DNA of 64,000 nucleotides. Origin: Treponema sp. GTDB lineage: Bacteria > Spirochaetota > Spirochaetia > Treponematales > Breznakiellaceae. This document shows, piece after piece, positions 3,475-42,858 of the stretch. The position numbers and the translations under genes are program-made. The notes below the pieces were generated by a model. That model had not been told where the DNA came from and did not search any database. It saw nothing but the letters and a program-made list of their open reading frames with translations. The first letter of the stretch is position 1. Every line of letters starts with the position of its first letter. The stretch is taken from assembly GCA_031276295.1 (NCBI GenBank), contig JAISNI010000072.1, forward strand, positions 1 through 64,000, written 5' to 3'.

Positions 3475-6360
3475 TTATTCGTATAATATCAATCCGGCCC
3501 AATACATAGGGTGTTTCCATTTTTCTTTCTCTTCGTCTTCTATTTCAATTTTTTTTCCTTCGTCACCATAGACCTCAATAGTCCCCTCGCGGAATTCATT
3601 TTTTACTTCATAGTAGGCATCTCGAAAGGTCTTGTGCTTCTGCAACACCTTGGTATAAAGGCTAACTATAAAAGCACTTGTTGCTTTATCATCCAGTGCC
3701 CAAAGGCTTACGCCAACGCTTTTTGCCCCTGCAGTCATAAAAGAAATGGGGAGCCCTACAAAACCGCTACCGCGTATATACTCGCCAAGCCCCGCGTTAC
3801 AGATTGACAATTCCACCATTTCGGCTTTTAATCGAACCTGTGCAATATCTTCTATGGATAAGTAGCCGTCTTCTTTAGCCCCCGGTCCGGATGCTTCTGA
3901 AAGCACAATGCCCCACTTGTCAACATTTTCTTTATCGTAATGTCCATGCCCCGAAAAATGTACAATGCTATATTTCTCTAATTCTCCGTTTCGGGATAAT
4001 TCTTTGACCATTGTTTCACTAGCCTCGGATCCCCGGTAAATATTAATACGCTTTCCTTCCCTTAAAGCGATTCTTTCAAGGTTATCTATTTCAATTTTTG
4101 TCCATGGGAGATTTGGTATAATTTCTTCCGGATTGGTATTCGGGTCATTTGGATCGGGTTTTGCAATAAGCCTGGTAGTCCGCCGATCAGCGTTTTCATC
4201 ATGGGTATTATTATATTCTATATCGCCAAACGCAATAATCGATTCATCCTCCGGTTTCCAATCTTTTCTCTTTGCACTTATAGTAACCGAGGGAGAGAAC
4301 GATATTTTATATTGTTTACCCAATTGCGGACTCTGAGCGTCTTCCTGGAGTATATCAAACGGCAGGAAGGGAAGAGAACCGTCTGGCACAACGATAATGT
4401 TTTTTACATTACCGCCTATAAGTTTTCTATCAAACACCGGCTTTATAAGTTCGGCATAGAGATTGCCGCAATATTCTTCAAATCTTGTTCCCTTATCTTC
4501 TTTTGCTATCAGATCCAAAATTCCTTTTATTTCCTGTTCCAGGCGGTCATCTTCATAGATATATTTAAAGTTAAGCGGTATTGCGGTAACGCCGTCATTA
4601 GAAAGAACAAAACAATAAGAATTAATGCATGGATGAATAATAGATTCTGGAATTTCGTAAGAATGAGACTCGGACTGTTCTCTGACCCACTTCCATGTTG
4701 CGGCATAGTCTTTTAGAGCAGACTGATCCCATAGCACATATTCAAGCACAACGGTATCGTTTCCACAAAATTTCTTGGCTTCAGCTATATCTATGGGCCG
4801 GGGATTTATCTTTTCCAAATAACCCGGAATACGCGAATCTATTTCTTCATGAAGTTCTTTAAGTTCCTTTTCAATTTTATTAAGATTTTCACAGGCATAT
4901 AAAAACCTGTTCTCTTTATCTCTATTATTTTCAACAAAACTATAATTCCTACCCAGATATTCATTTATAACATTCTGAGAAAAATCTCTTTCGTTCGTAA
5001 GCCGTAATACTTCTTTTCTTTCATCCTCAGTAACTTTGCAAGGGTCCAGCGCTATGGCAACGCCTATTTGCTCCAAAATATTTCGGCCTCGCAGAGATTC
5101 AGAATACCCAAACGCTTTTTCGCTGTTTCCCGCGGAAGTCTCCATATCCACGCCCACATAGTATAAATACAAGTAGTTAAGCATTATCTGTTTGCCCCGA
5201 CTGTCTTTCCGTAACTGTTCAGTCTTGCTTATGCCGCAGCCAAGCGCATCCTTTGTCAGCTCATACAATTTACAATAAAAAGGATCTGAGAAATTTTCCT
5301 TGTCTAGTTTCCCCTGCTGGTATATTTTCAGCACGAAGGACCATGTTCTATTAACCAAGACAACGGTCGTGTTGCTTTCTTTTGCGGTTTGTATGGAATC
5401 CTGATAATCAGCCAGAGCCTTTTCGTAATCATGTATTCTTTCATACGTATCACCCCGTTCAAAATGGTTTCTTGAAATCCCCGGCCCCCGTTTTATGGAT
5501 CGAGAAATATCCTTTAAGGCTTTGGCGTACTCGCCGATAGCTTTATAAGCCAAACCCCGGTCACGCCAAACCTTAAAATCAAGCGGGTTCAATTCAATTG
5601 CCCTGGTTAAATCCGCCAGGGCATTTCTGTGATAATTTCTTATTAGTTCCTCATCTTCCGTTCCTTTGGCCATATCAAAATATATTTTACTCCGGCCGCT
5701 GTAGGCCAAATAATATGAAGATGCCTCATCAATAATTTCATTAAACAAGTTTAATGCGCTGTCACGATCGCCAGAATACGCAAAGGCATTTGCAAGATTG
5801 CATTTATACATCGGATAATTTTTATTTAAATTAAGGGCCGCTTTGAATGCGGTGATAGCATTCTTATAATTATCCATATGGAAATAAACGCTTCCTAAAC
5901 TATTATACGCTTCAGTATATTTGTCATTGAGGGAGATGGCTTTTAAATAGTTCTCTATCGCCCTGTTGTAATCACCCATATATGTATAAGCATTCCCCAG
6001 GCTGACATACACATAATCATCCTTAGGGTTTAATGTCAGGGCATATTCAAAATCAGAAATGGCCTTACTTATTTCTCTTTTATAGTAATATGACAATCCT
6101 CTGTTGCCGTAAAGCATGAAATCTTCCGGTCCTTTATGCTGCTTTGACAGGGATATGGCCTTATTAAACGCTTCTATTGCCCGGTCCTGATCGCCCAGGT
6201 ATGAATATGCGTTACCAATATTGCCATAGGCGACAGCAAAATCAGGTTTAAACTCAAGGGCTTTATACGAATAATAAAGGGCTTTGGAGTATTGGCCTTT
6301 GCTTCCAAACTCTGTTCCCTTAATAAAAAACATTCTTGCCTGCAAATCATTAGGACTCAT
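3475..6360 (-). CDS. TPR-CHAT caspase-like protease
   Basis: N-terminal TPR array, C-terminal CHAT domain with HFSGHGHYD (His) and VELSICNAGLG (Cys) motifs and GLPISFMTAGAKSVGVSLW. Confidence 0.93.
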   Translation of the reverse strand: MSPNDLQARMFFIKGTEFGSKGQYSKALYYSYKALEFKPDFAVAYGNIGNAYSYLGDQDRAIEAFNKAISLSKQHKGPEDFMLYGNRGLSYYYKREISKAISDFEYALTLNPKDDYVYVSLGNAYTYMGDYNRAIENYLKAISLNDKYTEAYNSLGSVYFHMDNYKNAITAFKAALNLNKNYPMYKCNLANAFAYSGDRDSALNLFNEIIDEASSYYLAYSGRSKIYFDMAKGTEDEELIRNYHRNALADLTRAIELNPLDFKVWRDRGLAYKAIGEYAKALKDISRSIKRGPGISRNHFERGDTYERIHDYEKALADYQDSIQTAKESNTTVVLVNRTWSFVLKIYQQGKLDKENFSDPFYCKLYELTKDALGCGISKTEQLRKDSRGKQIMLNYLYLYYVGVDMETSAGNSEKAFGYSESLRGRNILEQIGVAIALDPCKVTEDERKEVLRLTNERDFSQNVINEYLGRNYSFVENNRDKENRFLYACENLNKIEKELKELHEEIDSRIPGYLEKINPRPIDIAEAKKFCGNDTVVLEYVLWDQSALKDYAATWKWVREQSESHSYEIPESIIHPCINSYCFVLSNDGVTAIPLNFKYIYEDDRLEQEIKGILDLIAKEDKGTRFEEYCGNLYAELIKPVFDRKLIGGNVKNIIVVPDGSLPFLPFDILQEDAQSPQLGKQYKISFSPSVTISAKRKDWKPEDESIIAFGDIEYNNTHDENADRRTTRLIAKPDPNDPNTNPEEIIPNLPWTKIEIDNLERIALREGKRINIYRGSEASETMVKELSRNGELEKYSIVHFSGHGHYDKENVDKWGIVLSEASGPGAKEDGYLSIEDIAQVRLKAEMVELSICNAGLGEYIRGSGFVGLPISFMTAGAKSVGVSLWALDDKATSAFIVSLYTKVLQKHKTFRDAYYEVKNEFREGTIEVYGDEGKKIEIEDEEKEKWKHPMYWAGLILYE

Positions 6361-7346
6361 AACAGACCTCCTTTGTCCAATTCCTTCAGCATCAATGCCG
6401 CTTCCTCATAATCAGGCTTGTCCTTTAAGCCCTGCAAACAAGATGCCCCTGATTGAATGTCACCAAGGGTAATATACAACATTCCAAGCTGATAACAGAT
6501 GTCATCTATAATGTCTTTATCGGTTACTGATTTATCGCGGGCAGTTTTAAAATCTTCTATGGCATCTTCGAAACAACCTTTTTTGCAAGAAACCATGCCT
6601 CGGTTATAATAAGCATCCCGGTTATCATGATCTAGTTCTATCGCCTTGTTAAAATAATTAATCGCGCTGTCGAAATCATCCTTAAGGGTATACGCGATGC
6701 CAAGACTATTATAAACGGATGAGTTTTCATAACCTCGCGGTATCAACTGACTATAATAATCTATTATCCGCTGACATTCCACGTCACCGGAATCAGTATT
6801 GCCGTCAAATACGCCTGCCGCCACCTCGCCCCGGGCATTTTTTATTCTTTGATAAGATTTCCAGTTATTGCTCTTGTCCTTCTCTGACGGGAACAAAAAC
6901 ACGAGTCCTATTGTCATTATTCCTCGGGCAGAATCCGAGAATTTTTTGGCCTGTTTGCTCTGCTCTGCCTGATCCTCTTCCACAGAATCCTCTTCATCTT
7001 CCCCTGAATACGTTTCAAGATATTCCTCAAAGGTTATTCCCGCTTTTTTTATCTCATAACGAATCATGCCATAAAGATTGTATAATTTACTGCGGAACGG
7101 CAGGGAATATCTTATGGCAGTTAAAATATTAAGCATATTCTTCTCGACAAATTCTTTATCGGAAGTCAAATCTTCACAGTTAACTATCCGTAGCGCCGCA
7201 CGAATCAAACGTTCGCTGTTATCATCTTCTTCCCAGAAAGCGTCTTCCAGAAAACCAACAATCTCTTTCCCTGAATTATAATGATGTTCTGTTTCATCCA
7301 GCGAAATTTTCCATTTTTTGGCCAAAACCTTAATGTCTCTATTCAT
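6357..7346 (-). CDS. TPR-containing protein, translationally coupled to the CHAT gene
   Basis: TPR motifs (SVYNSLGIAYTLKDDFDSAINYFNKAIELDHDNRDAYYNRG); 4-bp overlap with the CHAT gene. Confidence 0.85.
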   Translation of the reverse strand: MNRDIKVLAKKWKISLDETEHHYNSGKEIVGFLEDAFWEEDDNSERLIRAALRIVNCEDLTSDKEFVEKNMLNILTAIRYSLPFRSKLYNLYGMIRYEIKKAGITFEEYLETYSGEDEEDSVEEDQAEQSKQAKKFSDSARGIMTIGLVFLFPSEKDKSNNWKSYQRIKNARGEVAAGVFDGNTDSGDVECQRIIDYYSQLIPRGYENSSVYNSLGIAYTLKDDFDSAINYFNKAIELDHDNRDAYYNRGMVSCKKGCFEDAIEDFKTARDKSVTDKDIIDDICYQLGMLYITLGDIQSGASCLQGLKDKPDYEEAALMLKELDKGGLL

Positions 7347-36578: not shown

Positions 36579-36822
36579 CTTCTCTAATCCTCCATAATTC
36601 TTGGTATAAAGGATTATACCGCCGGTATTTTTAAAAAGGAAAGCGTAAAAAGTTTTGGAAATGACGTGTTGTTTTTTTGGATTTTTTTAAGGCGGGCTTA
36701 TGATGCAACACGGTAATTGACACGGTAATCAGGTATGGCACATAATGATCTTAATTAAGATTTTTGAGCTTTTCCTAAAACGCGGGGCCGCGGGGAAATT
36801 TTTTTAATGAAAATTACGGAGG

Positions 36823-37890
36823 GTGCTTATGAATAAGGGCGGAACCTTGAAAAAACGATTACCGGTACTCTGGTTTGGCGTGTGCGTACTGGTTTTTTCC
36901 TGCGCCAGCACGGGCGGGGGCGGTGTTTCCGTACCGCTGGATCAGGCCATACAGACGGCGGCGGGCGCTATCGACGGCGGCCTGGAAAAAGGCGTAAAAA
37001 TAGCGGCGCTTAACTTTAGTTCCCCTTCGGAACAGCTTTCCGGTTACGTGCTGGACGAACTGTCCGGCCACCTCGTGAACGCCAGGAATCTGGTGGTTGT
37101 TGACCGTACAGAGCTGGACCTGCTCCGGCAGGAAGAACAATTCCAGATGTCAGGCGAGGTAAGCGACGAATCCGCCCTTTCCATAGGGCAAAAGCTGGGC
37201 GCGCAGTTCATTGTGTCGGGCGGCCTCTCCAGCATGGGGAATGCATACCGTTTCAGGATACGGGTCCTGAACGTTGAAACCGCCGCGGTGGAAGCGTTTT
37301 CCGCTTCCGATTTGAGCGCAAAGGAGGAGAAGCTGGTCTACCTGCTTGCCGGCGCCAGGCCCGCCGCCGAAACCGCGTCTGTACCGCAAAGCCCCCGTTC
37401 CGCGCCCGCAAAAAAGTATCAGATCGGGGATACCGGCCCCGCCGGGGGCATCGTGTTTTTTGACAAGGGGGTATATGAGTCCGGCTGGCGTTATCTGGAG
37501 GCGGCTCCCCAGGATTTTCCCGCGGTACAGTGGGGCGCTTACGGAACCGTGGTGGGCGGAACCGATACAGGTATCGGCAGCGGAAAAGGGAATACGGAGC
37601 TTATTGTTCAAAAACTCAAAAAACTGGGGGAACAGGGCCGGGCGGCCCAGCTTTGCGCCGCCCTTGACGCCGGGGGTTATACGGACTGGTTCCTGCCCAG
37701 CAGGGATGAATTGAATTTGATGTATCAGAATCTCAAAAAAAAGAAATTGGGCGGATTTTTAAATGGATGGTACTGGTCCTCGTCGGAGAACAGTTATTAT
37801 TACGCGTGGTATCAGAGCTTCAGCGATGGCAGCCAGTCCAACTACGACAAGGATAATCCGGATTCGGTTCGGGCCGTCCGGGCTTTTTAA
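36823..37890 (+). CDS. lipoprotein with CsgG/LpoB-like domain and C-terminal DUF1566/C-type-lectin-like domain; candidate DGR target
   Basis: Lipobox VLVFSCAST; LNFSSPSEQLSGYVLDELSGHLVNARNLVVVDRTELDLLRQEEQFQMSGEVSDESALSIGQKLGAQFIVSGGLSS; C-term YWSSSENSYYYAWYQSFSDGSQSNYDKDNPDSVRAVRAF. Confidence 0.85.
   Translation: MLMNKGGTLKKRLPVLWFGVCVLVFSCASTGGGGVSVPLDQAIQTAAGAIDGGLEKGVKIAALNFSSPSEQLSGYVLDELSGHLVNARNLVVVDRTELDLLRQEEQFQMSGEVSDESALSIGQKLGAQFIVSGGLSSMGNAYRFRIRVLNVETAAVEAFSASDLSAKEEKLVYLLAGARPAAETASVPQSPRSAPAKKYQIGDTGPAGGIVFFDKGVYESGWRYLEAAPQDFPAVQWGAYGTVVGGTDTGIGSGKGNTELIVQKLKKLGEQGRAAQLCAALDAGGYTDWFLPSRDELNLMYQNLKKKKLGGFLNGWYWSSSENSYYYAWYQSFSDGSQSNYDKDNPDSVRAVRAF
37765..37890 (+). other. 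candidate DGR variable repeat (VR)
   Basis: GAG AAC AGT TAT TAT TAC GCG TGG TAT CAG AGC TTC AGC GAT GGC AGC CAG TCC AAC TAC GAC AAG GAT AAT: consistent with adenine-directed change of AAY codons, followed by an invariant-looking SVRAVRAF end. Confidence 0.6.
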
Positions 37891-37916: not shown

Positions 37917-37932
37917 CCCGCCGTAAGGCGGG
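37917..37932 (+). other. GTAA-tetraloop hairpin downstream of candidate VR
   Basis: CCCGCC-GTAA-GGCGGG, 6-bp perfect stem, 26 nt after the stop codon. Confidence 0.6.
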
Positions 37933-37956: not shown

Positions 37957-38003
37957 CGGGCGCATACCCCGCCGAACCTTATGTTCGGCGGGGTATGCGC
38001 CCG
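37957..38003. repeat. 21-bp perfect inverted repeat
   Basis: CGGGCGCATACCCCGCCGAAC-CTTAT-GTTCGGCGGGGTATGCGCCCG. Confidence 0.9.
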
Positions 38004-42812: not shown

Positions 42813-42830
42813 CAGCCTGTTGCACTTGTA

Positions 42831-42858
42831 GATTTTTTGCATATTCATGCAAAAAATC
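42831..42858. terminator. bidirectional hairpin between convergent genes
   Basis: GATTTTTTGCAT-ATTC-ATGCAAAAAATC, 12-bp perfect stem between convergent stop codons at 42812 and 42968. Confidence 0.6.

Follow-up and report, generated by a model that had tools for sequence, protein, structure and literature searches.

Among annotated DGR targets, DUF1566 domains ranked first in a survey of the human microbiome (PMC4159848; see also PMC6642488), and in Treponema the TvpA DGR of T. denticola acts on lipoproteins with a C-type-lectin fold (PMC4891356). In Bordetella BPP-1, efficient retrohoming requires a GC-rich hairpin, closed by a GRNA loop of 4 nt, downstream of the variable repeat (VR) (PMC3240598). 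The ligand face of a C-type-lectin-like domain has been mapped in Legionella Lcl, in which residues K369, S370, S371, A372, N373, N378, K380, K385, and K391 are implicated in glycosaminoglycan binding (PMC10723406). Our literature search found no description of DGRs of termite-gut Treponema or of CsgG/LpoB-fused DGR targets; such descriptions may exist elsewhere.

Here we analyzed a 64,000-nt stretch of DNA from a Treponema sp. (hereafter the window), which belongs to a draft genome of 3.38 Mb in 247 contigs that is 83% complete. An earlier note on this DNA had proposed that one of its genes is the target of a DGR whose cassette lies elsewhere. Our analysis supports this proposal: with a probability of about 0.93, judged from sequence, this gene is acted on in trans, from a remote locus, by a DGR of the host chromosome.

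The target gene and its protein

The ORF, its C-terminal sequence and the candidate variable codons listed in the note were all found on reading the sequence. The gene and its parts are the following:

36818–36822, plus strand: Shine-Dalgarno-like GGAGG, 6 nt before the ATG at 36829 (sequence)
36829–37890, plus strand: probable DGR target gene, encoding a 353 aa lipoprotein with an LpoB/CsgG-like domain and an Lcl_C (DUF1566) lectin-like domain (Pfam, AlphaFold model)
36829–36903, plus strand: predicted lipoprotein signal peptide with lipid-attachment Cys25 (VFS-C), from the lipobox by sequence reading
36931–37326, plus strand: LpoB-fold domain, residues 35–166 (VIA-align Z 14.7 to 4q6l, rmsd 2.6 over 128 residues)
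37417–37887, plus strand: Lcl_C C-type-lectin-like domain, residues 197–353 (Z 15.4 to the Legionella Lcl CTD, 8q4e, 35% identity)

The ATG at 36829 is the more likely start, since it is preceded by the GGAGG at 36818–36822, whereas the GTG at 36823 overlaps this ribosome-binding site. A Pfam scan assigned the C-terminal part of the protein to Lcl_C/DUF1566 (PF07603; E 1.2e-11, 45.4 bits against a cut-off of 34.9) and the N-terminal domain to both LpoB (PF13036; E 1e-5, 26.0 bits against 22.3) and CsgG (PF03783; E 4e-6, 26.7 bits against 20.8). In an AlphaFold model built with 19 homologues as input, the C-terminal domain has a pLDDT of ~95 and also matches 4eps (Z 13.8), and residues 190–353 match the snake lectin echicetin (Z 9.9). 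According to this model, the VR described below codes for the C-terminal end of a C-type-lectin-like fold. The likeness to Treponema TvpA that the note had drawn holds for mechanism and fold class and fails for the domain itself, which is Lcl_C/DUF1566, with Legionella Lcl as the closest solved fold; the same Pfam scan gave, up to E 1, no FGE-sulfatase match of the kind that a TvpA-type target would have.

The window's own genome contains an enlarged family of CsgG/LpoB-like lipoproteins, including a further paralogue without an Lcl_C match just outside the window (contig C166, 66515–66940).

A matching cassette in a sister species

A search for Lcl_C homologues in the genome of another member of the genus, Treponema sp. 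Kf353_bin150 (G001), returned one "ORF" that reads WSSSENNNNNAWNQRFSDGSQNNNNNKNNTNSVRAVRGF. The contig that carries it, C249, holds a complete cassette in the order Lcl_C target (1–633), bAvd (698–1102), template repeat (TR, from 1376), and RT (1587–2762). The bAvd was assigned to PF22296 (E 4e-15) and to the PHROG "Avd protein of DGR", and the RT has the DGR-type GxxxSQ motif, in the form LPIGNLTSQ, together with YVDD. The neighbors of the cassette include LpoB/CsgG-like genes, and no phage genes were recognized among them, so the cassette looks chromosomal. Isolate codes suggest that the related Treponema MAGs may come from termite guts.

Relatives of this RT with 50–68% identity occur in other Treponema MAGs (L160, L161, and L182), Bacteroidota, Methylobacter/Methylovulum, and Legionella, and ten cassettes of the same lineage, two of them in further Treponema MAGs, have cis VRs with changes biased to TR adenines. 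The RT relatives examined carry Lcl_C-like TRs, and the lineage therefore appears to be associated with Lcl_C targets. In the TR near the RT of one genome (G026), the Lcl_C motif is represented by its 3′ half alone. The sister genome also harbors a second DGR, of FGE type (GGSW...GFRLV; contig C68, locus L234, repeats at 268–414 and 833–979, with 20 adenine-only mismatches), which is thus present in addition to the one of Lcl_C type. A further genome from this family (G008) has an FGE-type DGR with a cis target on contig C10 (L140); it also encodes many Lcl_C proteins, one of them beside an avd homologue on contig C35.

It should be noted that a dispersed repeat that includes a palindrome, TGCACTTGTGGATTTTTTGCATATTCATGCAAAAAATC, has a copy with 1 mismatch at positions 42821–42858 of the window. 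In the sister genome, the avd reading frame next to the TR ends in this repeat, which possibly truncates Avd there. Translated matches that largely reflect this repeat number 26 in the window's own genome and 68 in the sister genome.

The variable repeat

Alignment to the TR on C249 defined the VR of the window gene, and pattern and repeat searches located further elements at and beyond its 3′ end:

37773–37882, plus strand: VR, by alignment to the TR of G001 contig C249
37864–37887, plus strand: IMH-like conserved tract TCGGTTCGGGCCGTCCGGGCTTTT at the 3′ end of the VR, identical in the gene on contig C162 of the same genome (pattern search)
37917–37932, plus strand: GC-rich hairpin CCCGCC-GTAA-GGCGGG, candidate DGR target-recognition hairpin/cruciform, from its recurrence behind VR targets
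37957–38003, plus strand: inverted repeat with perfect arms of 21 bp, shortly past the candidate hairpin (repeat search), a probable transcription terminator

Over 108 aligned bases, and measured against the TR of the sister species instead of that of its own species, the window VR is changed at 14 of 38 adenines and at 3 of 70 other bases (Fisher p = 2e-5), and is one codon shorter. The last ~110 bp of the gene thus read as a DGR variable repeat, near-identical to the TR except at TR adenines. The same bias was found in the VR of the C162 gene (18 of 40 adenines and 4 of 71 other bases; p 1e-6) and in the cis target on C249 (17 of 40 and 1 of 71). In the sister genome, the genes on C196, C374, and C589 have 2 non-adenine changes each. 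Most other paralogues have 9–25 such changes. The three non-adenine differences of the window VR (37863 C>T, 37869 C>T, and 37875 T>C) are identical in the C162 VR, which makes it likely that the TR of the window's own species carries those bases and so differs slightly from that of C249.

The note's cue for a DGR had been a run of codons that end in T or C and are derivable from AAY. By itself this cue is not above chance (26 of 39 codons in the tail end in T or C, against up to 25 of 39 in other stretches of the same gene), since any such codon can be derived from AAY by adenine changes. Compared with the sister TR, however, 9 of the 12 listed codons are AAY-derived; the other three are AGC330, for which that TR has AGA, and two codons of FSDGSQ, AGC and GAT, which are invariant. 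What bears out the reading as a DGR target is that a near-identical TR, differing essentially only at adenines, adjoins a DGR-type RT and bAvd in the sister genome.

A second line of evidence comes from silent sites. Among the codons that specify the same amino acid in the window and C162 genes, 22 of 22 are identical within the VR, compared with 31 of 76 upstream in the same domain (p 1.5e-7). Such a contrast cannot be produced by conservation at the protein level, and it indicates that the VR of the window gene is recently overwritten and that the C162 gene probably had its VR rewritten from the same implied template. Comparison of the window gene with the VR-positive genes of the sister genome gave the same contrast in weaker form, whereas VR-negative paralogues mostly gave none, or a smaller one.

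The IMH-like tract was found by pattern search at VR ends in the window's own genome, and at VR ends and the TR in the sister genome. The hairpin lies 29 nt past the start of the stop codon and is preceded by CCCTTTAACCCTTTT. Like hairpins stand at comparable distances 3′ of the VR targets on C162, C249, C374, C589, C360, and C341 and of the L160 cis target. On C196 there is no more than a degenerate form, and most paralogues without a close VR match have none.

Source of the diversification

As the note had stated, neither an RT nor a TR is present in the 64,000-nt window. A search of the whole assembly for a TR matching the window VR, by BLAST and adenine-degenerate patterns, returned only the gene itself and one A-rich chance match with 3 mismatches. 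The sister-species RT found phage RTs only, searches for Avd in this genome gave only repeat-derived or weak matches, and a scan of viral contigs with the VR/TR pattern found nothing. The placement of the cassette in trans is therefore right for this assembly. The absence of a matching TR and RT, which the note would have held against its own proposal, is not decisive because the sister genome has the cassette and two VRs of the own genome are concordant. We infer that a matching cassette is present, and probably active, in the window's own species.

Two genuine DGR cassettes of another kind do occur in this genome. On C177 (L083), among phage-like genes, a VR (4350–4444), avd (4626–5138), TR (5152–5246), and RT (5414–6646) were identified; VR and TR differ by 12 mismatches over 95 bp, all at adenines, and the target is a tail-region protein. 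The short contig C187 (L002) carries avd (78–572), TR (575–661), and RT (832–2052) of a prophage-type DGR whose VR was apparently lost at the contig end. A third RT match, on C128, is a contig-end fragment and does not look DGR-like.

Of the alternatives to an active DGR, the one that survives best is that the gene was diversified in the past by a DGR whose core has since been lost, a sub-case of the reading as a trans target that differs from it in present activity. The own assembly indeed yielded no core, and some T. denticola isolates are reported to keep their target genes without core components (PMC4891356). This assembly is, however, only 83% complete and split into 247 contigs, and the silent-site agreement of its two VRs points to recent rewriting; we consider loss of the core unlikely. 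Much less probable is ordinary divergence of a conserved Lcl_C domain with its usual YWSS...VRAVR consensus, with no DGR involved. Much of the tail is indeed family consensus, and the codon cue on its own would fit this view, but silent positions are conserved in the VR and not upstream, mismatches to the TR cluster at adenines, and a real cassette with such a TR exists. Gene conversion among paralogues without reverse transcription would also leave identical silent sites in a short 3′ tract; it would, however, copy the variable codons too, whereas the observed differences are almost confined to adenines of the TR, and there is a TR rich in AAY that is accompanied by RT and Avd. This account is slightly less probable still. 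Diversification by the prophage DGRs on C177 and C187 can be dismissed almost entirely, because their TRs, although part of genuine cassettes of the same genome, match their own phage cassettes only and not the window gene.

By analogy with characterized DGRs, a remote chromosomal DGR would act on the window gene as follows. An Avd/RT complex would copy the TR RNA and misincorporate bases at random where adenines occur. The cDNA mutated in this way would then take the place of the homologous VR, both in the 3′ end of the window gene and in that of other Lcl_C genes dispersed in the genome, with the IMH-like tract at the VR 3′ end and the downstream hairpin as guides. The product would be a lipoprotein with an LpoB-like domain that displays a C-type-lectin-like head with a diversified ligand face.

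Dispersed targets and length variation

The 3′-end pattern of the VR is present in the window and C162 genes and, in degenerate form, on C57 in the own genome, and in nine target-like genes plus the TR in the sister genome. The targets of the latter combine Lcl_C with an LpoB-like domain, with an LpoB-like domain and FN3-like repeats, or with a short lipoprotein, where the FN3-like and LpoB-like labels were assigned by eye.

VRs also differ in length. Between fixed anchors, the (AAC)5 tract of 15 nt in the TR corresponds to 12 nt in the window VR, 18 in that of C162, 21 in the cis target, and 18 and 12 in others; an AAT-rich tract of 15 nt is 18 nt long in one VR, and a non-repeat segment is always 12. 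The VRs of the window, L084, L093, L099, and L100 differ from the TR by whole codons, and only within AAC/AAT tracts, which suggests template slippage. For DGRs, work cited in PMC12875486 had already proposed slippage of AAC repeats in steps of three; it is equally possible that the TR itself changes in length. We tentatively propose, at somewhat less than even odds, that one chromosomal Treponema TR feeds dispersed proteins with differing N-terminal scaffolds and varies both the sequence of the lectin head and, through slippage, the length of its loop, as in the length of antibody CDR3.

The ligand face

An ungapped alignment of the last 39 residues places the glycosaminoglycan-binding residues of Lcl at residues 321–325, 330, 332, 337, and 343 of the window protein, all of which, except 332, are AAY or AGA codons in the C249 TR. 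The DGR would therefore vary the equivalent of a mapped glycan-binding face, and the target may be a lipid-anchored, diversified glycan- or surface-binding protein, a putative surface adhesin whose lectin head would be exposed at the cell surface.

Comparison with known systems

Taken together, these analyses confirm a DGR target from sequence alone even though its cassette is unassembled, and offer a test for orphan targets in general, namely conservation of silent sites in the VR against divergence upstream, plus a downstream hairpin. They also show that termite-gut-type Treponema MAGs have, besides DGRs of FGE type, one of Lcl_C type with several targets in trans, and, by linking DGR-variable positions to mapped glycan-binding residues of Legionella Lcl, provide a testable glycan-binding hypothesis for DUF1566 targets.

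Among known proteins, the Lcl CTD has the same fold (8q4e; PMC10723406), and its glycosaminoglycan-contact residues align with the variable positions of the window protein. Descriptions of Lcl give it a trimeric form and a collagen-like stalk, whereas the base of the window protein is an LpoB-type lipoprotein domain, and Lcl itself is not reported as a DGR target in PMC10723406. The candidate hairpin resembles that of BPP-1 in lying downstream of the VR, in its GC-rich stem, and in its loop of 4 nt; the BPP-1 consensus has a stem of 7–10 bp and a GRNA loop (PMC3240598), whereas the window hairpin has a 6-bp stem and a GTAA loop, which departs from GRNA at one position. The T. denticola TvpA system (PMC4891356) also has a Treponema host and remote targets that are lipoproteins with a C-type-lectin fold, several per genome, but these are of FGE-sulfatase type, a type also found in relatives of the window's species (L234 and L140), whereas the window target is Lcl_C. 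Finally, DGRs with DUF1566 (Lcl_C) targets (PMC4159848, PMC6642488) likewise have the VR at the C-terminal end of the domain, adenine-directed variation from a TR, and an RT-containing cassette; the window system differs from them in its Treponema host, in the fusion to an LpoB/CsgG-like lipoprotein, and in its several dispersed trans targets. The window system thus unites a Treponema host with targets of Lcl_C type, scaffolds of LpoB type, and more than one target in trans, a combination for which our literature search gave no paper.
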